Virus record (IMG/VR): IMGVR_UViG_3300008266_000178
Span: 1-37,892 of that record
DNA length: 37,892 bases
Origin: a virus
Reading direction: 5' to 3' (one strand)
The number at the start of each line of letters is the position of its first letter. Positions within the stretch are counted from its first letter, which is position 1. A program made the position numbers and the translations under genes. The notes under the pieces were generated by a model that was given only the letters and a program-made list of their open reading frames with translations, searched no databases and was not told the origin of the DNA. This document shows, in pieces, positions 463 to 37,874 of the stretch.

Positions 463-2301
463 TTAGTTGAGAATACCTGCAGCGTTGGCATGAGTCTGTG
501 CTATTACAAGGTGGCGTTTCTTGTTTCCCATTAAATCATTGTTTTTAGGATCGTCAAATTCTTTCATGTGATGCCTTACAGCATCCTTATGATCTTGTAT
601 CGAATAATCATGATAATCCATTGCGTTGGAATGAGAGTATACTGTTTTACCTGATTTTGTTTTTCCTATTTCTGAATTTTCTTTTTGATTCAATTCACTT
701 AATCTATGTCTTCCACTTCCAAAGCCACCTTTTTCGATATCATTTTTATCAACATTAATATGCATTTTATGATGAGCATTTCCGGGATGATAAAAAGATG
801 AAGGAACTGTATCTTTATAATTTCCTTTTTCATCATATTCAGCAACACCACCACCAGCTTGATGATGATATCCATGCGCATTAGAATGAACATCGCCAGT
901 TTGTCTGTTTTTCTTAGCTTCCTCTTTAACTTTATTTATTGCTTCTTTGTTTTCTGAATTTTTAATTGATTCAGCCATTTGCGCATGTGTATGTTCTCCC
1001 CAATGATGCTTACTCCAATTTTGATTTTTATACATCTTCTCACCTTTTATAGTCGTGCCATGCGATACGCCTTTGGTATATTCCTGTTTCTTTTCATGAT
1101 GTAATTTAGAAGCATCTCTATGATCTTTCTCAGAAAAATCTTTATACTCATGATAATCCTTATTAGCATATACAGGTTTTCCTGTTTTTGTATGGCCAAT
1201 TATTTTACCACCACGAGAACCTTCGCCACCCTTCTCAAACGTTTCATTCATTCCTTTCAAATATGTTGATTGTTGTAGTTGATGATCATATATATTTCCT
1301 TTCTTCAAATGCTGTTTATATCCTTCCAATTCTTCTTCTTGCTTATCAGCTTCTTTCTCATCATCTTCATGCGATAAACTTCTTAATACTTCTATAAGAT
1401 GTTCGTGTTCATCGATAAGTTCTTCAGTATTTGCAGTAGTTGTTTTTGATTTTGAAAAATGATTTACTATTGCATCACGATCTGCTTCAGGTAATTCAAC
1501 TCCCATCATTCGTGCATATCCAGCAACAAAACTATGATTAACATTTTCTTTTGCTATTGATTGTAATTTTATCGCGTTTATTACTTTTTCTTGTTTATCG
1601 TTTAATTTAGCAACATCTAAATGTTTATCGCCTTCCTTTTTCCAATTTTCAAAATGTTCATGTGGAAATTTTCCATAAGGATTTAAAGCATCATGATATC
1701 CATCTTTATCTGCACCGGGATATTGTTTACCTAAATTTCTTTCAACGTTAACTATTTTTTCACCACGACTAATTTCTTCTTCCCACGCAGACATTGTTGA
1801 ATATTCACCATTCTTATGTGCCTGTTCTAATTTTTTATGTGCTCTTAACAATTGTTTTTCAACAGGTGATTGTGTTGTTGGATTGTTTTTAATATGATCA
1901 AAAAGGTCAGCTTTGTATTTACCATAATGTTCTTGCTGTTTTTGTCTTAAATCTTTTAACTTATTATCGTATTCTTTTTTCTCTGCCGATTTCATTTTAG
2001 ACAACTTTCCTTTACCCGATTCTTTATGTGCAGCAATTTCATTTTGATATTGAATTGTATTTTTTCTTGACTCCATATTTTCACGATGATGTAGAGGAAC
2101 GTTATGTTCTAAATCTTCCCGCTCATGTTTTATATGACTATCAGAATCGTAAATAGCCTTTCCCGACTTTGTATGACCTATTACTTTTCCACCTCTGCTT
2201 CCTTCGCCGCCTTTCTCAACTTCATCTTCCATATGTACCTTTGCTTCAATACCGTATAAATTTTTAAGTCTTGATTTAGCAACGTTTTGTAAATGTGTCA
2301 T
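463..2301 (-). CDS. Large charged protein with three KGGxGS/GHTKSGK modules
   Basis: This 612-residue hydrophilic protein is rich in His, Lys and Glu and has no signal peptide or membrane segment. It has three copies of a module: EKGGEGSRGGK...GHTKSGKAIY at 29-51, a full copy at 357-402 ending DHRDASKLHH, and a variant at 523-578 that starts KGGFGSGRHR and ends DHKDAVRHH. Residues 80-340 between copies look helical and partly coiled-coil. The N-terminus has RLKNLYGIEAK, similar to the RRIxSLYGNNE stretch of the proteins at 6570 and 6916. GxGSGR motifs occur in phage head-morphogenesis and scaffold-type proteins, and the gene lies in the portal/lysis late region, so a virion or head-assembly role is inferred. 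No enzymatic motif is visible. Confidence 0.85.
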   Translation of the reverse strand: MTHLQNVAKSRLKNLYGIEAKVHMEDEVEKGGEGSRGGKVIGHTKSGKAIYDSDSHIKHEREDLEHNVPLHHRENMESRKNTIQYQNEIAAHKESGKGKLSKMKSAEKKEYDNKLKDLRQKQQEHYGKYKADLFDHIKNNPTTQSPVEKQLLRAHKKLEQAHKNGEYSTMSAWEEEISRGEKIVNVERNLGKQYPGADKDGYHDALNPYGKFPHEHFENWKKEGDKHLDVAKLNDKQEKVINAIKLQSIAKENVNHSFVAGYARMMGVELPEADRDAIVNHFSKSKTTTANTEELIDEHEHLIEVLRSLSHEDDEKEADKQEEELEGYKQHLKKGNIYDHQLQQSTYLKGMNETFEKGGEGSRGGKIIGHTKTGKPVYANKDYHEYKDFSEKDHRDASKLHHEKKQEYTKGVSHGTTIKGEKMYKNQNWSKHHWGEHTHAQMAESIKNSENKEAINKVKEEAKKNRQTGDVHSNAHGYHHQAGGGVAEYDEKGNYKDTVPSSFYHPGNAHHKMHINVDKNDIEKGGFGSGRHRLSELNQKENSEIGKTKSGKTVYSHSNAMDYHDYSIQDHKDAVRHHMKEFDDPKNNDLMGNKKRHLVIAQTHANAAGILN

Positions 2302-2361
2302 TTTATTTTTTTATTTAAAAACTTTTATTTTATTTTTACCATCTGTTTTATTAGGGTATTC

Positions 2362-2395
2362 CCTCTTCCGTTTCTACGGAGGAGGCTTTTTTTTT
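2362..2395 (+). terminator. Strong hairpin with T-run on the plus strand
   Basis: CCTCTTCCG (2362-2370) pairs with CGGAGGAGG (2377-2385) over 9 bp including one G-U, around the loop TTTCTA, followed by C and nine T on the plus strand. On the minus strand it starts right after the stop of the 2394-2726 gene, with an A-run before the stem and no T-run after it. It therefore looks like a plus-strand terminator, or a 3'-end/leader RNA hairpin, in a region with no plus-strand gene. Confidence 0.6.
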
Positions 2396-2726
2396 AAAAC
2401 TTCAAAGCGTTTTTATTGAAAAAGCCTTTATAAATAACTACACCGTTTTCAATACCATCGATTATATATTCTTCATTCTTTGATTCATCAGTACGAGTAA
2501 TTTTCCAACTTACTTGTTGATCACCTGCTGCAAAGAATTCATAAGACTGATTTTTAACCAATCTTTTGATTTCCTTGATATTTTTATTACGAAGAACAAC
2601 ACGCCATAAATTTTGATACGATAACACTGATACGTTATCATTACCAAGCGAATGTTTCATTACACAAAGCTTATGCCTTAATGTATCAATTACTGTTTGT
2701 TCGTTTTGCTGTACTGCTGTGTTCAT
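2394..2726 (-). CDS. Hypothetical protein, 110 aa
   Basis: A soluble 110-residue protein that I do not recognise. The N-terminal half looks helical (QTVIDTLRHKL). The C-terminal half looks beta-rich (VSWKITRTDES, EEYIIDGIENGVVIYKGFF). It lies 14 nt after the 506-residue module protein and is followed directly by the plus-oriented hairpin at 2362, so it may be the last cistron of that run. No catalytic motif or cysteine pair is visible. Confidence 0.75.
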   Translation of the reverse strand: MNTAVQQNEQTVIDTLRHKLCVMKHSLGNDNVSVLSYQNLWRVVLRNKNIKEIKRLVKNQSYEFFAAGDQQVSWKITRTDESKNEEYIIDGIENGVVIYKGFFNKNALKF

Positions 2727-2740
2727 TTTTTGATACTATT

Positions 2741-4261
2741 TTATTGTTTTAAATAAGAACTATGCACTGCTGTTTTTCCGTGTTCTGTTTTTATTCCTAA
2801 CCATTTACCGCCTTTTGGATTATCTTCAGGAACATCATGACCGCTATTTTCTGCTTCATCTTTAGAATTAAATACATGCTTAACATCGTATTCATTATCG
2901 TCATGATAAAGTTTTATCTTATCACCAACTTTATGATTGTTATTACCTAAATTACGTTTTTCTTCTTTTTCTGCAGCGTCATCTGCTGCAAAATCATGAT
3001 CTATTAATAAACTAGCATGTTGATTTTCTTTTTCACTATTATTTTCTTTTTTATATTTTTGCGCAAGTTTATTATGAATATCAACCGCATCTGAATGATC
3101 TGCTGAATTAAAGTTTTTATAGTCTTCATGATGAGGTGTTTTATCAGCATATACAGCTTTACCACTTTTAGTGTGCCCAATAACTTTTCCGCCGCGTGAA
3201 CCTTCACCACCACCTTTTTTAATATCTAATAAATCATCCAAATAATTTTTAACTGTTTCTTTATTATCAAAAATTTTATTATCGTTTTTTTCTTCAAAAT
3301 CATCATAATAACTTTTACCATCAGCATATTTCTTTTCGCGCATTTTAGATTTTATCTTTTCATGCATATGTTGTGGTGCTTCTTTTAAATCACTATCGGC
3401 AACATAATCCATATTACCTACAGTTGTTCTTACTTTATGATATTTACCATCTTCATCAGATGAATGAATAACACCATGATTCATAACTCCTGTATAATTA
3501 TTTTTAAACGAAACAAATTGACCTTTATGTCTACCACTACCATGTCCGCCTTTTTCAATTTCACTTTCTTTTGTTTCCTTTCCTTCTTTCATAGCATTGG
3601 CTTCATTAGCGTTTGCTTCAGTTTTTTCTTTTTTACTTGCAAAATTATTTGCATCTTCTTTATTTAATCCTTCACGTTTTTGTATAGCATACTTTTTATT
3701 ATCGTCGGTTGTTTTATAATAATGCTCTTCTTTTTGATGCTGCGCGCCTTTTATCGTATGACTGTATTCCATTTTACCATGTTCAGGATGATTTATTATT
3801 TTAGGAACACCTTGAATATCGTGATTTTCTTTCTCTTCAAAGTTATTATCAACTTCGCCACGCATCGCCCTACGATGTTTTACCTGCATTTGATCATGAT
3901 GATCTCTTGTTTCAATATGTTCCTGCCATTTAGGATTAGGTTTATTATCACCTTCTCTCATACCTATAAGTCGTGAAGGTGTGCTTTCTGCTTTTCGCGA
4001 ATGTTTACCATATAATTCACCGTGAATTACGGAAGCATCACGATGATCATCAGGTGTATAATTTTCAGTACCATGTGGTTTATCCATTCCCTTTGATTCA
4101 TATACTGCTTTACCACTTTTTGTATGGCCTATTATTTTTCCACCACGGCTACCTTCTCCTGCTTTTTCCAACTTATCAAACTGACCTTCATTCATAAAAG
4201 TTGTTGTCATTCTTTTAGAATGTAAATGTTGTTTCGCAGCACCTGAGTTAAATAAGTCCAT
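2741..4261 (-). CDS. KGGEGSRGG-module protein, 506 aa
   Basis: A 506-residue hydrophilic paralogue of the 612-residue protein. Full modules lie at 32-80 (KAGEGSRGGK, GHTKSGKAVY, DDHRDASVIH) and 349-396 (GGGEGSRGGK, GHTKSGKAVY, ADHSDAVDIH). A third site at 237-247 reads KGGHGSGRHKG and is followed by a possible small beta-barrel (residues 249-292, FVSFKNNYTGVM to YVADSDLK). The last 60 residues (GDKIKLYHDD...) look like another small beta domain. The start is 3 nt from the stop of the upstream gene, implying a common late transcript. Structural or internal-virion function is inferred from position and lack of enzymatic motifs. Confidence 0.85.
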   Translation of the reverse strand: MDLFNSGAAKQHLHSKRMTTTFMNEGQFDKLEKAGEGSRGGKIIGHTKSGKAVYESKGMDKPHGTENYTPDDHRDASVIHGELYGKHSRKAESTPSRLIGMREGDNKPNPKWQEHIETRDHHDQMQVKHRRAMRGEVDNNFEEKENHDIQGVPKIINHPEHGKMEYSHTIKGAQHQKEEHYYKTTDDNKKYAIQKREGLNKEDANNFASKKEKTEANANEANAMKEGKETKESEIEKGGHGSGRHKGQFVSFKNNYTGVMNHGVIHSSDEDGKYHKVRTTVGNMDYVADSDLKEAPQHMHEKIKSKMREKKYADGKSYYDDFEEKNDNKIFDNKETVKNYLDDLLDIKKGGGEGSRGGKVIGHTKSGKAVYADKTPHHEDYKNFNSADHSDAVDIHNKLAQKYKKENNSEKENQHASLLIDHDFAADDAAEKEEKRNLGNNNHKVGDKIKLYHDDNEYDVKHVFNSKDEAENSGHDVPEDNPKGGKWLGIKTEHGKTAVHSSYLKQ

Positions 4262-4263
4262 TG

Positions 4264-5814
4264 TTATTGTTTTAAGTAGTTTTTAAATTCATCAAATGTG
4301 AAACAGTTTTGTTGAAGTTTTACATTCGACGATACTGAATTTGATATTTCAATTTTTATTTTTTTACCTTGCTTAGTTGGATCAGTAATTGGATTTTGAT
4401 TTTCCCATTTTTTATGATCTTCATCAATCGCCATATTTGATGAAGGTCCATTCCATTTATCGTAATCATCACTCATATTTTCAAGTGACATAACTAATTG
4501 ATCTTTATTTTTTTCAAACGTAATCCATTTTTCACCTCTGAAACTTTTATCGAAATGATTTACGATATTTAAATAATGCTGGGGATCGGCTAATATTTCT
4601 TTGAAACTCTGTACAGTCGCAATCTTTTCATCTGCGTTCATAGGATATGGTTTAATCCACTGCGCAGGTCTTGAACCAACCTGATGTTTTACTTCTATTC
4701 TTTCTTTTGCTGCAATATGTTTATCAACTATTTGTTGCGCTTGTTTGTTTCGCATATGATCTGCGATTTTTGATTTGTTATACGCCATCAAATCATCGAG
4801 AAATTTATTAATCTTGTTTTTATCTTTACTATCCGACGTATGATCAAATACGTTTCTTGCGCGACTGTATTCACCATCTATTTCTGCAAAGGTTTTATTT
4901 TCAAAATCTTTTTCATTAAACACCCAGGGATCGTTTGATATCTGTTTATTTGGAAAATCTTTAAATGCTTCTTCATGTTCTTCATCGCTTACCCAATTCC
5001 CTGGTTCTTTTACTTCTGATTTTATATCCTGTATATTAAATTGCTTTTTAAATTCAGGAGTTAATAACGCATTTTTTTCTGGATTTTCAGTTGCTTCTTT
5101 TATCTTTTTTATAAACACATCTTTTAAATGATCGATAGAAAATGTTCGACCTGTAAATCTCAAATCTTTAGGTTGTTTTTCTTTAGGTTGAAAACCTCTA
5201 CTATAAAGTTCATATGTTTTATGTGAACCACCACCGCTAAATATATCTATTCTTTTACTACCAACCATTACTTCATTAATATCTACACCTTGTACTGTAT
5301 ATTGCGAAATAGGGCGCCAGAAACCTTCCAATGCAACACCATTTATTGTTGCTTTAAAACCAATACCATTGGTTGATGTTTCGTAAGTATTTTTTTCAGA
5401 AGAATTATAAGTTACTTTTACTTTTTGTTTTGCTTCTTTCTTATCATCATCCTTCTCTGCTTCATGTGCGCGTATTGATGTTTCGCATGCTTCTTTGAAT
5501 TTATCAAATCTCATACCAACGTTGTGTGCTATTTCTCTTAATTCTTCGTCTTTTGGTAACTTACCACTTTTACCTATCTTTACTATTTCAGCAGTTATAC
5601 CTTCATTTTTTTCAGTCAATGCTTCATGTCCTCTTTTAATACTAACGTTTTCTTTTTCTACTAAATGAGAATGTGTTTTGATAGGCTTCCAACCATCCAA
5701 CGTTTTTACATTCTTACCAGACTTATCAACCTGACCTACTAAAAACGCTTTAGCTTTTTCAAACAAATCGATATTTGGTTTGGTTTTGTTTTTATCAAAA
5801 TTATAAATACTCAT
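4264..5814 (-). CDS. Hypothetical late protein with DKS...GW module, 516 aa
   Basis: I do not recognise this 516-residue soluble protein. Residues 24-46 (FLVGQVDKSGKNV, KTLDGWKPIK) match the module of the 96-residue basic protein at 82-372: G, DKS, K/R-x-V-K/R-T, GW and K are shared. Residues 60-130 are helical and charged, residues 130-235 look beta-rich (GIGFKATINGVALEGFW, YTVQGVDINEVMVGSKRIDIF), and the rest is mixed. It lies between the 142-residue membrane protein (3-nt gap) and the 506-residue module protein. The family is unknown; the context suggests a late structural or assembly role. Confidence 0.85.
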   Translation of the reverse strand: MSIYNFDKNKTKPNIDLFEKAKAFLVGQVDKSGKNVKTLDGWKPIKTHSHLVEKENVSIKRGHEALTEKNEGITAEIVKIGKSGKLPKDEELREIAHNVGMRFDKFKEACETSIRAHEAEKDDDKKEAKQKVKVTYNSSEKNTYETSTNGIGFKATINGVALEGFWRPISQYTVQGVDINEVMVGSKRIDIFSGGGSHKTYELYSRGFQPKEKQPKDLRFTGRTFSIDHLKDVFIKKIKEATENPEKNALLTPEFKKQFNIQDIKSEVKEPGNWVSDEEHEEAFKDFPNKQISNDPWVFNEKDFENKTFAEIDGEYSRARNVFDHTSDSKDKNKINKFLDDLMAYNKSKIADHMRNKQAQQIVDKHIAAKERIEVKHQVGSRPAQWIKPYPMNADEKIATVQSFKEILADPQHYLNIVNHFDKSFRGEKWITFEKNKDQLVMSLENMSDDYDKWNGPSSNMAIDEDHKKWENQNPITDPTKQGKKIKIEISNSVSSNVKLQQNCFTFDEFKNYLKQ

Positions 5815-5817
5815 AAT

Positions 5818-6246
5818 TTAGGCTTTACTTTTTTGTATGTAATTTACTTTCTTTAAAATCGAATCTATTGATTTAATTACACTACTATCTTTTTTTGAAA
5901 GTTGTTTTCGTTTTCTTGGTATCGTATCTGTATATGCTGCATACATAGGATTTAATCTTTCATTAAATCGATACGATGTTGGTTGTGATTTAGTTTCAAC
6001 CTTTGAAGTAATTGTTTGTCTTATGTTTAATAAAACAGTAATTAATTCTTGATTTTGTTTTTCAAGATATGAACAAGGATTGTGATTTTGATACTGTTGA
6101 TATTGATCAATTGGTTTTTCGCGAGAAAAATAATAATATCCGCTACTCATTATAACTAATACTATAAAAACAAACCATATACGGCTTGCTTTATTTGTAG
6201 ACAATGTTTTTAGTAATGATAGAAAAAACGTGAATATCTGATTCAT
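5818..6246 (-). CDS. Small single-pass membrane protein, 142 aa
   Basis: The 142-residue product has one clear membrane segment at about 23-41 (IWFVFIVLVIMSSGYYYF) preceded by positive charge, then a polar tail with a helical stretch at 62-80. This gives an N-in, C-out prediction. Its ATG overlaps the TGA of a 25-codon ORF upstream (ATGA), suggesting translational coupling. It lies about 1.1 kb downstream of the endolysin gene, so a lysis accessory role is possible but unproven. Confidence 0.8.
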   Translation of the reverse strand: MNQIFTFFLSLLKTLSTNKASRIWFVFIVLVIMSSGYYYFSREKPIDQYQQYQNHNPCSYLEKQNQELITVLLNIRQTITSKVETKSQPTSYRFNERLNPMYAAYTDTIPRKRKQLSKKDSSVIKSIDSILKKVNYIQKSKA

Positions 6247-6320
6247 TTTGAAAATATCATTATAGCTATTCCAACGATTATTAGTTTGATTGTATTTTTT
6301 TGTTCGAATGTTAGTTTCAT
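6243..6320 (-). CDS. 25-residue membrane microprotein
   Basis: This ORF encodes 25 residues: MKLTFEQKNT followed by IKLIIVGIAIMIFSK. The second half is a strongly hydrophobic helix. Its ATG overlaps the TGA of the upstream gene (6317) and its TGA overlaps the ATG of the downstream membrane-protein gene (6246), both as ATGA, which is what a coupled small cistron looks like. It fills a 70-nt gap that would otherwise be anomalous in this packed region. It could be a holin/antiholin-like or accessory membrane peptide; function is unknown. Confidence 0.55.
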   Translation of the reverse strand: MKLTFEQKNTIKLIIVGIAIMIFSK

Positions 6321-6580
6321 TTCTGTAACGATTTTAAGTATTTAGCAATTTCCAATACCGTAAATCTAATTATATTTTCAAATTCTTTTTTGTTTTTATT
6401 CTCAATTACTTCAAGTAAAGATAATTCAGCTTTGTCTTGATACTTAACTTCATTTACTCTACCGTTTAAAGTATCTGCCTTTAAAGACTTTTCAACGTAT
6501 GTCCATTCACCTTTATCACTTAAATAACAATCATACAATGGTAATGAAACGTGTTGAGCTATATTTTCTTTATTCTTCAC
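6317..6580 (-). CDS. Hypothetical protein, 87 aa
   Basis: An 87-residue soluble protein that I do not recognise. It is rich in Lys and Glu, with a C-terminal helix (FENIIRFTVLEIAKYLKSLQK). It overlaps the end of the acidic-tail gene upstream by 11 nt and the microprotein start downstream by 4 nt, so it is embedded in a coupled operon. Confidence 0.7.
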   Translation of the reverse strand: MKNKENIAQHVSLPLYDCYLSDKGEWTYVEKSLKADTLNGRVNEVKYQDKAELSLLEVIENKNKKEFENIIRFTVLEIAKYLKSLQK

Positions 6581-6905
6581 CTTCGTCGTTAATTTGTTCG
6601 CCTTTTACTTCATTATCTTTTTTTTCTTCAACTTCTTCAACACCATCATCGTTATCACTACCTTTTTCTTTATTCTCTTTATCTTTTTGTTTTATTACAG
6701 CCTCTGCGTGTTGAACAATAAATTTCTTTGATTCATCTTCAGTTGATTCAACGTTTTCTTTTCCGTTATCTGTTTTTTGTTTCGCTGCAGCTGCAGTATC
6801 AACAACTTTATCAACATTTGATTTTTGTACTTCGTTATTACCATATAAAGACGCTATACGTCTTTTACCTATAACTTCACGAGAAATAAATTGATCGTTT
6901 GACAT
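6570..6905 (-). CDS. Acidic-tail protein sharing an N-terminal tag with its neighbour
   Basis: Of 111 residues, the first 29 (MSNDQFISREVIGKRRI, then ASLYGNNEVQKS) match the neighbouring 147-residue protein at 26 of 29 positions. The rest is low-complexity and acidic (KKDNEVKGEQINDEGEE at the end), probably disordered. The neighbour continues into the KGGEGS module, which this one lacks, so the pair looks like a tandem duplication with divergent tails. Because the conserved part is the N-terminus, a targeting or assembly tag is a plausible reading, but nothing proves it. Confidence 0.8.
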   Translation of the reverse strand: MSNDQFISREVIGKRRIASLYGNNEVQKSNVDKVVDTAAAAKQKTDNGKENVESTEDESKKFIVQHAEAVIKQKDKENKEKGSDNDDGVEEVEEKKDNEVKGEQINDEGEE

Positions 6906-6915
6906 TTTTTAGTTT

Positions 6916-7359
6916 TTATTGTTTATTTTCACGATTAGTTGAAGCTCTTCCACCAGCCTTTAAATGATAATTAAAAGCATCTTCATGCTTTTTATAATTT
7001 TGATAATGTTCAGAATTATTTTTCTTATGTTCATCAAAAGCATTATGGTGTTCGTTTGTTCCCGGTTTTTTACCTTCAGTCATTTTATCATAATGTTTTG
7101 ACATTTCTGCGTTATGATGATCAACCGCATCTTGATGATCGCGTTCTGTAAATTTAGGTCCACCCATACCTTTATTTCCACTTTGGTAAATAGGTTTACC
7201 TGAAGCTGTATGTCCTGTAACTATTCCACCATGTGAGCCTTCTCCACCTTTTTCTAAATCACGATCTTCAATAGATTTTTGAATTTCATTATTACCATAC
7301 AAAGATGATATTCTTCTTTTGCCTATCACTTCGCGTGATATAAATTGATCGTGTGACAT
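6916..7359 (-). CDS. KGGEGS-module protein, 147 aa
   Basis: A compact 147-residue member of the module family. It has the N-terminal tag at 1-29 (MSHDQFISREVIGKRRI, SSLYGNNEIQKS), then one module at 36-82 (EKGGEGSHGGIVTGHTASGK, PIY, FTERDHQDAVDHH). A His/Lys-rich helical tail follows. It starts 9 nt after the endolysin gene, as part of the late operon. It shows the minimal architecture, tag plus module plus helical tail, that is expanded in the 506- and 612-residue proteins. Confidence 0.85.
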   Translation of the reverse strand: MSHDQFISREVIGKRRISSLYGNNEIQKSIEDRDLEKGGEGSHGGIVTGHTASGKPIYQSGNKGMGGPKFTERDHQDAVDHHNAEMSKHYDKMTEGKKPGTNEHHNAFDEHKKNNSEHYQNYKKHEDAFNYHLKAGGRASTNRENKQ

Positions 7360-32175: not shown

Positions 32176-32850
32176 TTACCAACGATATCTACTATACGAT
32201 AATGATTCTCTTTTTTCTCTTTGTATTTCTTTTTGTAAATATTCTTTCATCCAACTATTCATATAACATAATGAATTTTCACGATTCAAATTATATTTGA
32301 ATTTTTTATGCAACTCTTTCATTTCTTTGTAATTATCTTGATTAATTGATTCCCAGATATCAAAATAAATTGAATCAAATTTATCTCCGGTTTTAAAATT
32401 AAAAATATCGCCTTCAATTATTTTTATTTTTTTATCTTTAAAAAACGGTGCAACTATATCAATTACATTTTTATTGTTTTCAACAACAACAATTTCAGTT
32501 ATTTCTTTAGATTTTAATTTTTTCATTAAATTTTCTAACAATAATCCAATACCAAGTCCTGCTATTAAAACCTTTCCATTAGCTTTTTGTATAAAATCTG
32601 AATTAGTTAATTTTTCCATATTAGTATCAGACATAAAAAGTTTACCATCTATAATTAACTTAACATAAGTTCCCTCGTACATTGTCATAAATGCATGACC
32701 ATCACGTGCTGCACGTAAATTATAAAGAATGTCATTTCTTTCTTTATATTCATAGCACATAAGTTTACAATTACCTTTTTCAATTACTTGTTTAGGAATC
32801 ATTTTAAAACGATCTACAACTCCTAATAAATTTGATTTTCCGTAGTACAT
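32176..32850 (-). CDS. SAM-dependent methyltransferase (spermidine-synthase-like fold)
   Basis: The 224-residue Rossmann-fold enzyme has motif I VLIAGLGIG (94-102), acidic residue Glu124 (VVVENN), EGDIF (Asp148) and FDSIYFDIW (158-166). This resembles spermidine-synthase/methyltransferase-like folds rather than a C5-cytosine methylase (no PC or ENV motif). Substrate unknown; a nucleotide, DNA or polyamine substrate is possible. It is near the base-modification genes but in the unit driven from 33941. Confidence 0.8.
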   Translation of the reverse strand: MYYGKSNLLGVVDRFKMIPKQVIEKGNCKLMCYEYKERNDILYNLRAARDGHAFMTMYEGTYVKLIIDGKLFMSDTNMEKLTNSDFIQKANGKVLIAGLGIGLLLENLMKKLKSKEITEIVVVENNKNVIDIVAPFFKDKKIKIIEGDIFNFKTGDKFDSIYFDIWESINQDNYKEMKELHKKFKYNLNRENSLCYMNSWMKEYLQKEIQREKRESLSYSRYRW

Positions 32851-32854
32851 AATT

Positions 32855-33349
32855 TTACGATTTTATTATTAATTTTTGTTTTGAATTTTCTTCTTCTATT
32901 AAAATATTTTCCAATGAAATAATTTTAACATTAGCTTTTTTTAATAATTCAATTCCAGATACGTCTCTATATTGTTGTTCATAAATAACATTAGTAATTC
33001 CAGATTGAATTATAATTTTTGCACATTCAATACAAGGTGATATTGAAACGTACAGTATTGAATTTTTTGTAGGTATTCCTTGCCTTGCTGCTTTAGCGAT
33101 AGCATTTATTTCTGCGTGAATTACTTCAGGTTTAGTTACCGTTCTTTTTAATTCAGTATTAAATGCCGCACCAGAATCTGGTATTTCTTCTTCACAAATA
33201 TTTGGAAATCCATGAGGTGTTCCATTATAACCATAAGCAACAATGTTGTGATCTTTAACTATCACTGCTCCAACTTTACTTCTTTTCGCATAACATAATT
33301 GTTCTGCTATTAAATTACATAATGCGATATAAAAAATATGCCATTTCAT
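32855..33349 (-). CDS. Deoxycytidylate (dCMP) deaminase
   Basis: This 164-residue zinc deaminase has the HAE triad (His78, Glu80) in EVIHAEINAIAKA and SPCIECAK (Cys106, Cys109). The KVGAVIVKDHNIVAYGYNGT and GFPNICEEE segments fit the dCMP-deaminase (rather than cytidine-deaminase) group. It makes dUMP from dCMP, feeding thymidylate or modified-pyrimidine synthesis. It sits downstream of the ThyA-like/ThyX-like genes. Confidence 0.9.
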   Translation of the reverse strand: MKWHIFYIALCNLIAEQLCYAKRSKVGAVIVKDHNIVAYGYNGTPHGFPNICEEEIPDSGAAFNTELKRTVTKPEVIHAEINAIAKAARQGIPTKNSILYVSISPCIECAKIIIQSGITNVIYEQQYRDVSGIELLKKANVKIISLENILIEEENSKQKLIIKS

Positions 33350-34010: not shown

Positions 34011-34724
34011 TTACTTTTTTGAATATTCGTAAGAACTACGAGGAATAGTTATACCTAACTGTTTTTCAAGTAAATCAGGCGTTGTACATGATTGATTAAA
34101 TGAAGCATAATTTGCTTTATCTTCCCATCTTCCACAACCAGCAAATAAACAACCAAACATATTTGAAAGATAATCAGCTGATGAATAATCGCATTCTTGT
34201 TTTAAATCACACCCAGGTAATAATCTTAGCATTTGATTATACATTGAATCATTTCCTCTTGTTAAAAACAGATCTATTAATTTATCTCTTAATAACCAAT
34301 GTAATCCTACTATAAATTCTTCTTCACAGAATTTTAATCTTCTTGCCATTTGTCCAGTTAATGAAGTAAAATCCTGCTGAACTTCATAACTACAATTTCT
34401 TGTCATCAAATTAAACGGTGTTTTAAAAAAACAATTTTCACGTAATTTTTCAAGTTCAAGTAATGAATTAGATACTTTTGTTTGAAATTCTTTATTTTCC
34501 AACAATTTAAAAGTATGATTATAAAATGAGTATTCAGGAGTATCTGATACTTTATAATCAAAAAATCTTATTCCTATTCTTGCTCTACTATGTTGATCAT
34601 ATTGACAAATAGGTGTGTTCTTAACTTCATACGTTACAGATTTTTTATCGTAATCTAAAATATTTACAATTAAATTACTAACACCATTAAAAATATGAAT
34701 ATCGTCTTTTGTTATTATTTGCAT
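34011..34724 (-). CDS. Cys-rich unknown next to the ThyX-like gene, 237 aa
   Basis: Unrecognised 237-residue protein. Cysteines cluster: CQYD (Cys40), CFFK, RNCS, and a C-terminal LLPGCDLKQECDYSS...MFGCLFAGCGRW with four cysteines in about 25 residues, possibly a metal or cofactor site. The middle (ELEKLRENC to GLHWLLRDKLIDLF) is helical. It directly follows the ThyX-like gene (11-nt gap), suggesting a partner role. I cannot name a fold. Confidence 0.7.
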   Translation of the reverse strand: MQIITKDDIHIFNGVSNLIVNILDYDKKSVTYEVKNTPICQYDQHSRARIGIRFFDYKVSDTPEYSFYNHTFKLLENKEFQTKVSNSLLELEKLRENCFFKTPFNLMTRNCSYEVQQDFTSLTGQMARRLKFCEEEFIVGLHWLLRDKLIDLFLTRGNDSMYNQMLRLLPGCDLKQECDYSSADYLSNMFGCLFAGCGRWEDKANYASFNQSCTTPDLLEKQLGITIPRSSYEYSKK

Positions 34725-34735
34725 TTTTTTATTTT

Positions 34736-35596
34736 TTAAATTTGATTAAAGTATTTTAAATCTTCTACCGATAACTGCGAAACAGTTAAATTTCTAATTT
34801 CTTCAAACCTTTTATTTTTATCATTTTCTGAATTTAAACAAATCATTGCATAAAATCCTATTAATGGAAATTTTTTATGAATAGCAAAACAAATTGTACA
34901 ATATAATTCTCTTAACATTATTTCTTCTTCCGTATTTCCGAAAAATTTACTTGCATGAAATCCTTTTACACCTACTATAGCTAATAAATTTTGTGAAAAA
35001 TGATATGCGTGTAAATATGATTGCGGTAAAAATGTTCTTGCACTTTGCCAACTTGATTGATCAGCATTTAAAACTTCTTCGTAAAGATTTTTTAAATCTT
35101 TAAATACAGTATCTAATGATATTAGTTTATCAACATGTGAACTTGTTATATCATCAACCGTTTGTGGAGTTATAACAATATCGCTATCTAATTTGCTATT
35201 ATCTCTACAACCAATACTCATAATAGAAATAAATGGAACTTGAGTATGATAATCAAACAACCAACGAGGAACGCCATTTACTCTAAATACAAAATTTACC
35301 ATTTCCTTAGCCTGCGGTAATGTATTATGAGTTAAAACTGCTTTTATTACTTCCAACTTACCTTCAATATCTGTCTTCGCCCATTTTGATTCAAACTTAT
35401 TATCTCCCCATGTACTTGTAGCAGCAACAAACATTGCTTTATACGGATTATGTGAATGATCTTCGATTGTTATATCGATTGATTCATTAAAACGCCGAAT
35501 CTCAGTGTTTTTTACAGGTCTCTCAGAAGGTAACGTTCCTGTTACTTTCCTAAGATTTTCTATAAAATCTGTAGTTAAATGTTTTTGTTTTTCCAT
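34736..35596 (-). CDS. ThyX-like protein with altered active site
   Basis: The 286-residue protein aligns by pattern with flavin-dependent thymidylate synthase (ThyX). The region VLTHNTLPQAKEMVNFVFRV, NGVPRWLFDYHTQVPFISIM (87-126) matches the ThyX helix and the strand leading to the RHRxxSxNExSxRY motif. ARTFLPQSYLHAYHF (187-201), then SQNLLAIVGV...EEEIMLRELYCTICFAIHKKF, matches the ThyX C-terminal half. However, the RHR...SxRY residues are not conserved: DYH replaces RHR, and SIGCRDN stands where the SxRY should be. Flavin or nucleotide chemistry may therefore differ. It lies between the SDR and the Cys-rich gene. Confidence 0.65.
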   Translation of the reverse strand: MEKQKHLTTDFIENLRKVTGTLPSERPVKNTEIRRFNESIDITIEDHSHNPYKAMFVAATSTWGDNKFESKWAKTDIEGKLEVIKAVLTHNTLPQAKEMVNFVFRVNGVPRWLFDYHTQVPFISIMSIGCRDNSKLDSDIVITPQTVDDITSSHVDKLISLDTVFKDLKNLYEEVLNADQSSWQSARTFLPQSYLHAYHFSQNLLAIVGVKGFHASKFFGNTEEEIMLRELYCTICFAIHKKFPLIGFYAMICLNSENDKNKRFEEIRNLTVSQLSVEDLKYFNQI

Positions 35597-35597
35597 A

Positions 35598-36605
35598 TTA
35601 TGATTTGTTTATGTTTTTGTTAAAATTACAAACTGAATTAAACGTTAATGCAAACCCTTCTTCGTTTTTAATAAATCGTTGATAAAGTTTTTCAACTTCT
35701 TTTTGATTAAAGTATTTTATAAAATTAGAGTGTAGTCCTAAGTGATCTTGTAAATAATCACTCTTATCAATAATTTTAATATGTTTATTTACATCTACAA
35801 TACATATTGCAGTTAAATCTTTACATATGTTTCCAAAACTTTTCGCCCAACTATGTGGATTTGAAATTATAAAATCGATAGTGTTATTGAAATAATCCAA
35901 ATTAACAAGTATTTGATTAAACATTATGCTGAAATTTTCAACACGCATGTAATTTTTTTTAAAATGATTTTCTAACGTAATATCAATTATTTTATCTTCC
36001 AATACTGCTTGAAATATTTTTCTAATATTAGATGAATTATCTTCAGGTGCGTTACCGTAAACAAAAACAGGTTTTATTATTACTGCATTATTTAAAGTTT
36101 GTTTTACAGCCAATTCACCACAATATTTACTCAACCCGTATAATGTTTTTGGATTAATTATTTCTTCTTCGTCAAAATATCCATTTTTTTGCATGTACGA
36201 ATTAGGATCGAAAACTGCTGTTGTTGAGAAATAAATTAATCTTGCGCCAGTTAATCTTGAAAGCGTAATCATATTTTGTGTTCCAAGAATATTTGATTTA
36301 ATTGCGTCGTAACTATAATTATCACATTTATCAGTATTTACATAAGCTGCTGTATGAATTATTATATCGTTTTCATCTAACTCTTCAGCTACACAAGTAA
36401 TATTTGTTTGATTTAAAATATCAATTTCAAATTCCTTTACTTGTTTATTTTTATCTCCATTATAAAAATGATAATCGTTCCAAAAATATTTAAACGAATA
36501 TTTTTCTTTTAATTCTTCGTTTATAATTTTAAAACCTTCTGGTAATCCTGCAGCAATACCTTTAGCAAGTAATCCAGATTCGCCTGTAATAAATATCCTT
36601 TTCAT
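35598..36605 (-). CDS. Extended SDR: NAD-dependent epimerase/reductase-like
   Basis: This 335-residue protein has GESGLLAKG (8-16, Rossmann NAD(P) motif), the strand IIIHTAAYVNTD (81-92), STT (127-129, catalytic Ser/Thr), and YGLSK (Tyr156, Lys160, catalytic pair). It is of the RmlD/dTDP-4-dehydrorhamnose reductase to GDP-fucose/epimerase class, acting on nucleotide sugars. In a phage this could feed glycosylation of modified bases or capsid or LPS modification. The substrate cannot be read from sequence. It is 1 nt from the ThyX-like gene, so co-transcribed. Confidence 0.85.
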   Translation of the reverse strand: MKRIFITGESGLLAKGIAAGLPEGFKIINEELKEKYSFKYFWNDYHFYNGDKNKQVKEFEIDILNQTNITCVAEELDENDIIIHTAAYVNTDKCDNYSYDAIKSNILGTQNMITLSRLTGARLIYFSTTAVFDPNSYMQKNGYFDEEEIINPKTLYGLSKYCGELAVKQTLNNAVIIKPVFVYGNAPEDNSSNIRKIFQAVLEDKIIDITLENHFKKNYMRVENFSIMFNQILVNLDYFNNTIDFIISNPHSWAKSFGNICKDLTAICIVDVNKHIKIIDKSDYLQDHLGLHSNFIKYFNQKEVEKLYQRFIKNEEGFALTFNSVCNFNKNINKS

Positions 36606-36607
36606 GT

Positions 36608-37123
36608 TTATATGTTTATATGTAATGAAACTACTTTTATATAAATAGCACCTACTTCGTATCCTAAAATATTATGCGCTGTTTCCATTAATTTACAGAA
36701 AGTCAAATTATCGTATAAAAAATTATCTTTAAAATTTTGACTTCTTACTACAATATGAAAATCTATTTTTTTATTTCTTACAATAATTTGTACGTAACTT
36801 ATACAACTTGCTAAATTTTCATTTCCAACATATTTTAACTGCGCAACACATTGTCTTGAATTTATTTCGCTTTTTAACCAAAGACAACAAAATTTTTCAA
36901 CAACATTAATTAAAACTTTTCTTTCTTCTTCATCATCAATATTATTAGGTTTTACTGAATCATAATCACTATGAGAAAAAAAACTATCTATCTGATAATT
37001 TACATTATATAATTCTTCAGTTAAAAACGGATGTATTTTTATTTTCTTTGAATGATTTTTAAACAAACTTCCTATTAATTCAACAATTTCTTCAATCATT
37101 AAATTATGCGTATTTACTGTCAT
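36608..37123 (-). CDS. Short ThyA/dCMP-hydroxymethylase superfamily protein
   Basis: The 171-residue protein's C-terminal 85 residues match the ThyA-fold pattern: NSRQCVAQL (88-96, with the SRxxxxQ strand), ASCISYVQIIV (Cys107 in the catalytic-Cys position, Gln112), HIVVRSQN (Arg127, Ser128), YDNLTF (138-142), SLHIN (His168). Aligning the RSxDxxLGLPxN stretch without gaps puts Asp138 where thymidylate synthase has Asn177; T4 dCMP hydroxymethylase has Asp there, which sets dCMP specificity. The usual RSxD Asp is Asn130. So a dCMP-C5-modifying or hydroxymethylating enzyme is likely, though at 171 residues it is shorter than the usual ~245. Confidence 0.7.
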   Translation of the reverse strand: MTVNTHNLMIEEIVELIGSLFKNHSKKIKIHPFLTEELYNVNYQIDSFFSHSDYDSVKPNNIDDEEERKVLINVVEKFCCLWLKSEINSRQCVAQLKYVGNENLASCISYVQIIVRNKKIDFHIVVRSQNFKDNFLYDNLTFCKLMETAHNILGYEVGAIYIKVVSLHINI

Positions 37124-37566
37124 AAGTCTAAATTTAAATCAATAATAAAGCAAGTATCTTGTATAGTTTGTTTTGAAGTATCTATTGTAAATACAAACTT
37201 ATTTGAATATTTATTAGCCAAATTATTTGCTTCTTCAGCTACCTCTAAAAAAACGTTTTGATGTTTAATAAAATCTGATATCAAAATATCTTTTTCATTA
37301 TTTTCAATAAATCTTTTTGCTGCAACGATTTCGTCACACGTTAATAGAAAAAATTTATGATTAAAAATAGAACCTGAAAAAATAAATTCACGCCAAAAAA
37401 ACTTTTCATTAATATTTCTATTATATATTCTACCGTAAGCTATTTGCGATATAAACGATCTAACATATACTAAACAATTACCTTTATGTTCTTTTACTAA
37501 AAATCTTCTAACCGAATCCTTACCTGTTTTATCTGCACCATCTAAATGTACTATTGCTGATTTCAT
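37120..37566 (-). CDS. P-loop nucleotide/nucleoside kinase-like protein
   Basis: This 148-residue protein has a P-loop: HLDGADKTGKDSVRRFL (7-23). GxxxxGKDS resembles the GKDT of T4 deoxynucleoside-monophosphate kinase gp1 and also thymidylate-kinase-like proteins. The Walker B/LID region is not obvious, and LISDFIKHQN may be the DxxK-type strand. In the same operon as the ThyA-like gene, it could phosphorylate a (modified) dNMP. Specificity is inferred from neighbours. It overlaps both flanking genes by 4 nt. Confidence 0.7.
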   Translation of the reverse strand: MKSAIVHLDGADKTGKDSVRRFLVKEHKGNCLVYVRSFISQIAYGRIYNRNINEKFFWREFIFSGSIFNHKFFLLTCDEIVAAKRFIENNEKDILISDFIKHQNVFLEVAEEANNLANKYSNKFVFTIDTSKQTIQDTCFIIDLNLDL

Positions 37567-37874
37567 AAAAACGATTGTTTACAGGTTTGCATTAATCTAA
37601 TTATTTTATCCAATTGATTTAATTCGAATTTACCAAAAAACAAAGTTTTATTGTACGTTGCTAATGTATCAGTAAATATTTTTAATACTTCTTTAAAAGA
37701 AAAATCGTCGTTATTAAAACACTCAACTATTTCATTATTTTTTAAATGAAATGTAATTCTATCGTTTTTATGATGCGTTGATGTAACAATTTTATTTTGC
37801 ATATTTATTTCCCATGCATTTATTTCGTGCAATGCGGCTGGATATTCAAAAAATACGAGAGTTATTTTTTTCAT
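37563..37874 (-). CDS. Hypothetical protein at window edge, 103 aa
   Basis: Unrecognised 103-residue protein, complete within the window: ATG at 37872-37874. Beta-rich N-terminus (KKITLVFFEYPAALHEI) and middle (ITFHLKNNEIVECF), C-terminal helix (LNQLDKIIRLMQTCKQ). It precedes the kinase-like gene with a 4-nt overlap; upstream genes lie outside the window. Confidence 0.7.
   Translation of the reverse strand: MKKITLVFFEYPAALHEINAWEINMQNKIVTSTHHKNDRITFHLKNNEIVECFNNDDFSFKEVLKIFTDTLATYNKTLFFGKFELNQLDKIIRLMQTCKQSFL

Follow-up and report, generated by a model that had tools for sequence, protein, structure and literature searches.

What is made by a phage operon in which two unrelated families of one-carbon transferase stand beside a dehydrogenase of the sugar-nucleotide type and a nucleotide kinase? 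The question is raised by positions 34736-37566 of IMG/VR record IMGVR_UViG_3300008266_000178, which we analysed over its whole stretch of 37,892 nucleotides (nt; the window). A sequence-only reading had described here four genes with almost no spacing, for a short ThyA-superfamily protein, a divergent ThyX-like protein, a short-chain dehydrogenase/reductase (SDR) and a P-loop kinase. All four open reading frames (ORFs) are found on the minus strand, with junctions of -4, +2 and +1 nt in the order kinase, ThyA-like, SDR, ThyX-like. We suggest that they belong to a module, conserved among uncultivated phages, which probably produces, ahead of replication, a pyrimidine deoxynucleotide modified at C5. 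The ThyX-like enzyme, divided here between two complementary paralogues, is probably central to this pathway.

The operon and its neighbours are listed below (lengths in amino acids, aa).

37563..37874, minus strand: g103, small predicted protein, conserved in relatives on the 5' side of the kinase gene, with which it shares 4 nt here
37120..37566, minus strand: P-loop deoxynucleoside-monophosphate (dNMP) kinase of thymidylate-kinase type, 148 aa (Pfam PF02223)
36608..37123, minus strand: minimal ThyA-superfamily enzyme, 171 aa (phrog_160), with catalytic Cys107, Arg127 and His168 and dCMP-type Asp138
35598..36605, minus strand: RmlD-like extended SDR, 335 aa (PF04321)
34736..35596, minus strand: ThyX-like subunit A (P5), 286 aa (PF02511)
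34011..34724, minus strand: ThyX-like subunit B (g237), by structure match of its AlphaFold2 (AF2) model and alignment to the single-chain ThyX family
32855..33349, minus strand: dCMP deaminase, accessory (phrog_174, E 3e-45)
32176..32850: methyltransferase, a neighbour, by family searches

Judging from gene order and conservation, the operon extends beyond the four genes and also includes g103 upstream and g237 downstream, which starts 11 nt past the ThyX-like gene. g103 matches a protein of one relative (L012) with phmmer E 6e-10, and weaker matches occur in 15 further loci. The contig ends 18 nt 5' of g103, thus the operon may be cut.

The two ThyX-like proteins

P5 matches Pfam Thy1 (PF02511) with 27.0 bits, just past the cut-off of 24.8 (E 5e-6). 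Since all six members of its family match the same model (best E 3e-7), with 36-93 bits for single-chain relatives, its description as a divergent ThyX holds. g237 matches no Pfam or PHROG family model. A structure search with its AF2 model (pLDDT 60, pTM 0.63) returns ThyX in 47 of the 50 rows listed, and these are the 47 best, with a top Z of 8.7; the next unrelated row has Z 3.5. Aligned by hhalign to the single-chain ThyX family, P5 gives E 2e-59 and g237 E 5e-44, and a comparison of one profile with the other gives no match (E 0.14). By its model and its profile, g237 is a ThyX-fold paralogue of P5.

Several lineages (L108, L110, L114-L129) have a single ThyX chain of about 320-380 aa. 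In the window two genes replace it, and g237 lies directly 3' of the ThyX-like gene in 30/30 other contigs that reach there. Among 70 positions conserved in the single chain, 37 are kept by P5 alone, 23 by g237 alone, 2 by both and 8 by neither. The Fisher P for this complementary split is 9e-10, and 2e-5 in the shared core, values that serve as a guide only because the test assumes independent columns. In the tree, P5 and g237 each form a fully supported monophyletic group nested within the single-chain proteins, which fits a single duplication followed by reciprocal loss.

The split also divides the active-site residues, which were mapped through M. tuberculosis ThyX. P5 keeps NPYK/TWGDN, TLPQA, SIGCRDN and SWQxAR and has lost RxR and the R174 equivalent, and g237 keeps DQHSRAR, RRLKFCEEEF and the Cys-rich C-terminus and has lost the R90 and R147 equivalents. 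In T. maritima numbering, we take P5 R131 and R187 to be R90 and R147, and g237 R47/R49 and R129 to be the RHR-motif arginines and R174. The full canonical set (RHR, S88, R90, Y91, R147, R174) is thus not in one chain but spread over two proteins. ThyX is a homotetramer whose active sites lie between subunits, so that a heteromer of P5 and g237 could restore complete sites; to judge by the residues kept, the two proteins look like obligate partners in a heteromeric ThyX. Compared with the canonical enzymes of T. maritima and M. tuberculosis, the pair has the same fold and superfamily and equivalents of R90, R147, R174 and RxR. However, two paralogues with complementary losses stand here in place of a one-chain homotetramer, with a Cys-rich C-terminal extension and with the positions of H79, S88 and Y91 replaced. 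In the single-chain family, Gly and Asp occupy the positions of S88 and Y91. In T. maritima ThyX, S88 and Y91 help water leave the flavin carbinolamine (PMC8316439), hence with both changed the ThyX-family chemistry may differ from thymine synthesis. Two records (G010, G027) also hold a canonical ThyX, which, together with these changes, argues that the ThyX of the module is not merely a dTMP supplier. A ThyX-type hydroxymethylase may have been reported elsewhere; our literature searches found no enzyme of this type.

In one relative (L128:195-1649) an intein-like insert (MPGTKIITENG...) breaks the ThyX-like protein right after the conserved KFC.

The module in uncultivated phages

The proteins have diverged so far that relatives were not found by tblastn of the ThyX-like protein, the ThyA-like protein, the kinase and g237 against 50,697 phage records, and no isolated phage record among these matched the ThyX pair. 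Short-peptide scans of IMG/VR made singly with the ThyX-like and ThyA-like proteins, the terminase and a conserved 458-aa protein gave no relatives either. Searched as a DNA pattern, the P-loop of the kinase (GxDKTGKD) gave 71 loci in IMG/VR, many of which carry relatives of the whole set (E values: ThyX-like 4e-94, g237 5e-83, SDR 3e-72, kinase 4e-42, ThyA-like 1e-26). A scan of IMG/VR with the ThyX-like alignment gave 33 contigs, and a single-chain-ThyX pattern gave 16 loci, partly in contigs already found. All counts are of contigs, some of them close kin, and were taken from strict profiles, because iterated hidden Markov models mixed up the labels of uracil-DNA glycosylase (UDG) with DnaE and of kinase with ThyA owing to fusions.

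The module is present in dozens of uncultivated phage contigs. This recurrence, found by the gene-set neighbourhood search in IMG/VR, excludes a chance grouping. Its core is formed by a flavoprotein resembling UDP-galactopyranose mutase (UGM), a MazG/5'-nucleotidase, the ThyX-like protein, the dNMP kinase and the SDR; ThyA-like, UDG and dCMP deaminase are optional. The UGM-like flavoprotein and the MazG/HAD protein, a fusion of a MazG domain with a 5'-nucleotidase-like HAD domain, are encoded close to the ThyX-like gene in 28/28 loci with sufficient flank, and the SDR and ThyA-like genes in most of those loci, not all. Because the ThyX-like, MazG/HAD and flavoprotein genes are the most constant and the ThyA-like gene is missing in some lineages, we place the ThyX-like enzyme, probably, at the centre of the pathway. 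The relatives' neighbourhood runs flavoprotein, MazG-HAD, g103, kinase, SDR, ThyA-like, often a DNA polymerase, then ThyX-like and g237. Thus the flavoprotein and MazG/5'-nucleotidase genes are predicted just past the end of our contig. In the contigs nearest to the window (L080, L096) kinase, SDR, ThyA-like, ThyX-like and g237 are contiguous and followed by an exonuclease gene. The set is retained across divergent lineages, high-GC ones included, despite shuffled gene order. Contigs picked by the kinase motif alone carry ThyX-like genes, and in records reached only via a more distant kinase form ThyX-family proteins adjoin the kinase.

The surroundings are those of DNA synthesis. Neighbours include genes for DnaE or PolA polymerase and exonuclease, and dUTPase, ribonucleotide reductase and dCMP deaminase lie near the module in many relatives; the deaminase is also close to it in L106, L107, L117, L119, L122 and L129. 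The sequence-only reading had placed a dCMP deaminase and a methyltransferase in the next unit. Both genes are present, but only the deaminase recurs: neither the methyltransferase gene nor the DUF7694 gene was found beside the module in relatives, and we do not count them as members.

ThyX-family proteins of a still more remote group (L142-L145, about 310-350 aa) are encoded directly next to this type of kinase or at a short distance from it, with no SDR or flavoprotein recognised nearby. In L013 both DnaE (L013:3473-7276) and dUTPase (L013:8732-9632) seem to hold intein-like inserts. No cellular copy was found; a pattern search of genome contigs gave one contig of a metagenome-assembled genome (L130), without a confirmed ORF. 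By terminase, the closest isolated phages infect Bacteroidota, e.g. Chryseobacterium and Croceibacter. In the region compared, the nearest, Chryseobacterium phage MA9V-3, showed no homologue of any cluster gene, and it has a canonical ThyA. In one stretch (PV245944.1, 45868-50580; L002) this ThyA occurs with GTP cyclohydrolase, QueE and a QueD-like protein, which suggests 7-deazaguanine DNA modification instead. Elsewhere in the window (463-7359) several ORFs share repeat motifs of the type KGGEGSRGGKxIGHTKSGKxVY, some with more than one copy per protein.

ThyA-like protein, kinase and SDR

By its profile matches, the short protein belongs to the ThyA superfamily. It matches the PHROG thymidylate synthase family (phrog_160) with E 3e-7 (Pfam E 0.003, under the cut-off), and the first pick of its 12-member profile in the PDB is T4 dCMP hydroxymethylase (E 0.003). 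The hhalign alignment to ThyA and gp42 (E 3e-6) puts the catalytic Cys, Arg127 (the phosphate-binding Arg) and the Asp in register. C107, R127, R90 and H168 are invariant in 12 relatives and equivalent to Cys146, Arg166, Arg126 and His207, where R90 and H168 were assigned by eye from alignments. D138, invariant in the same relatives, is in register with D179 of T4 gp42, the position of N177 in E. coli; by eye, more divergent copies have the Cys and the same Asp, or the Asp shifted by one residue. Asp at this position marks enzymes which use cytosine nucleotides (PMC5175136) and is found in thymidylate synthases on cytosine-modified contigs (PMC8670742). In view of this Asp we favour cytosine as the target, and the modified base is probably cytosine-derived; uracil is also possible, given the recurrence of dCMP deaminase and UDG. 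Shorter than E. coli ThyA by about 90 aa, the protein aligns to it over the C-terminal ~90 residues only. Its AF2 model from the single sequence (pLDDT 44) is too poor for use.

The kinase matches Pfam Thymidylate_kin (PF02223) with E 5e-8, over the curated cut-off, and its P-loop reads GADKTGKDS in a 13-member family alignment. The sequence-only reading had seen in it the form of T4 gp1. A P-loop kinase it is, but kinship to gp1 fails beyond the P-loop, which is all that is common (E 0.03 and probability 2% over 23 aligned columns). Fusions of the kinase to a ThyA-like domain occur in L085, L094 and L108, with a Pfam match in or beside the fusion ORF in G015, and apparent fusions to a UDG-superfamily-like domain in L080:7575-8528, L096:7704-8555 and L113:6867-7766. 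These fusions argue that the proteins share one nucleotide substrate, and those with the UDG-like domain hint at a possible link between the modified nucleotide and an activity like that of uracil-DNA glycosylase.

The SDR matches RmlD (PF04321, E 5e-25). It has the conserved residues of an extended SDR, with Y156xxxK160, S127-T129 (STT) and the TGxxG start at T7-G11.

Proposed pathway and its alternatives

We infer the following substrates, products and order of steps, and the formation of the ThyX heteromer.

Step 1: The UGM-like flavoprotein, a putative redox enzyme, and the MazG/5'-nucleotidase, both encoded 5' of the set in relatives, would work with the operon; the MazG/5'-nucleotidase would destroy the competing unmodified dNTP or dNMP.

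Step 2: The ThyA-like enzyme, with dCMP as its most likely substrate, and the heteromeric ThyX (34736-35596 with 34011-34724) would place a one-carbon unit onto C5 of a pyrimidine dNMP.

Step 3: The SDR would change the product, or a group attached to it, in an NAD(P)-dependent redox reaction.

Step 4: The kinase would phosphorylate the modified dNMP toward the triphosphate (dNTP) used by the polymerase.

The ThyX/ThyA/kinase/SDR set fits pre-replicative modification, as do the MazG-nucleotidase, the kinase-ThyA fusion and the Asp of the ThyA-like protein. In this part the earlier proposal of a modified pyrimidine is supported. Its proposal of glycosylation gains no support from sugar-nucleotide-type enzymes alone; we regard a glycosylated base as possible. 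More tentatively, and with distinctly less confidence, we suggest that the ThyX paralogues form an obligate heteromeric flavoenzyme which installs a new C5 group that is not thymine, in series with the dCMP-type ThyA-like enzyme, giving an undescribed base made by two unrelated one-carbon transferases.

Several points weigh against the modified-nucleotide pathway. Nothing recognisable as a glycosyltransferase, or as another transferase dedicated to the DNA level, turned up in the neighbourhoods examined, where no search was aimed at glycosyltransferases. The flavoprotein and MazG/HAD genes are absent from the window itself. The confidence of the g237 model is moderate, and part of the complementary split, already subject to the independence assumption of the Fisher test, is whole-end loss. 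The N-terminal half of the ThyA-like protein is short and without detectable ThyA match, so the half with E58/W80/Y94 is not recognisable. In several lineages (L091, L104, L118) the protein was not detected, thus it is unlikely to be an indispensable step.

Could the operon simply supply dTMP, with divergent thymidylate synthases and a dTMP kinase feeding replication and an unrelated SDR? The kinase is indeed of thymidylate-kinase type, the enzymes around the module in many relatives (dUTPase, ribonucleotide reductase, dCMP deaminase) would suit such a role, and the relatives' records lack a canonical ThyA and, as a rule, a second ThyX, so that a source of dTMP is needed unless it is the host's. 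However, two non-homologous one-carbon transferases in one operon would be redundant for this task, the ThyA-like protein has the dCMP-type Asp, and H79, S88 and Y91 of ThyX are altered. Furthermore, G010 and G027 encode a canonical ThyX in addition, and a flavoprotein, a MazG/5'-nucleotidase and usually an SDR accompany the set. We therefore consider ordinary dTMP supply unlikely. In another scheme, the SDR and the flavoprotein make a nucleotide-diphosphate sugar, later joined to 5-hydroxymethylpyrimidine of the DNA in the way that T4-like phages add arabinose or other pentoses. Both proteins match nucleotide-sugar enzymes, RmlD and, with E 5e-5 for the best PDB match of the flavoprotein family profile, UGM. 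Sugar-modified 5-hydroxymethylcytosine (hmC) occurs in phages (PMC12838424, PMC6024577). But SDR and UGM-type folds act on many other substrates, and in view of the glycosyltransferase result above we hold this scheme to be quite unlikely. The product might, finally, serve outside DNA, as a modified nucleoside toxin, a signal or an RNA precursor. MilA of mildiomycin biosynthesis acts outside DNA synthesis (PMC5175136), and the UMP/dUMP methylase PolB is among the listed structural matches of g237. Against this speak the neighbouring DNA replication genes, and MazG/5'-nucleotidase, dUTPase and UDG, which point to control of DNA precursors; such a purpose seems very improbable to us.

The pre-replicative pathway that we prefer resembles hmC synthesis of T4 (gp42, gp1 and the dCTPase gp56) in its ThyA-fold enzyme with dCMP-type Asp and its dNMP kinase, and the pyrophosphatase-type enzyme of the relatives could counter unmodified dNTP. 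It differs in that the kinase belongs to the thymidylate-kinase family and not to gp1, gp42 is longer than the ThyA-like protein by about 75 aa, and a predicted heteromeric ThyX, an SDR and a UGM-like flavoprotein are added, with no glucosyltransferase recognised. The flavoprotein is also about 200 aa shorter than the UGMs it matches best in the PDB, and its gene lies outside the window; catalysis by UGM, too, proceeds via an adduct at flavin N5 (PMC8316439).

For a ThyX-type protein in a phage with modified bases, the closest precedent from experiment is gp130 of SP-15. This phage has 5-dihydroxypentyluracil DNA and two Thy1 proteins, of which gp130 was proposed as hydroxymethyluridylate synthase (PMC5977210). 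In KT624200.1 (115025-116910) the SDR gene SP15_129 stands directly before the ThyX-type SP15_130, so that an SDR/ThyX pairing occurs with a proven hypermodified uracil. SP15_129 is, however, a different SDR type, and relatives of the other module genes are not annotated adjacent to it. We also tried SP15_130 as a family member and rejected it, as the single-chain, P5 and g237 profiles gave no significant match.

The logic shared with T4 and related phages makes this a kind of system already known; what is new lies in the combination of genes, the division of ThyX and the pairing of flavoprotein with SDR. Modifying their DNA is one of the main ways in which phages counter restriction and CRISPR, and with new modified bases come new enzymes. 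The ThyX-like pair has no match in the 50,697 phage records though the module occurs in dozens of contigs, hence an entire branch of modification chemistry may have escaped sampling. The divided ThyX, in turn, would allow a direct test of how two paralogues can partition an active site that the subunits of a homotetramer share.

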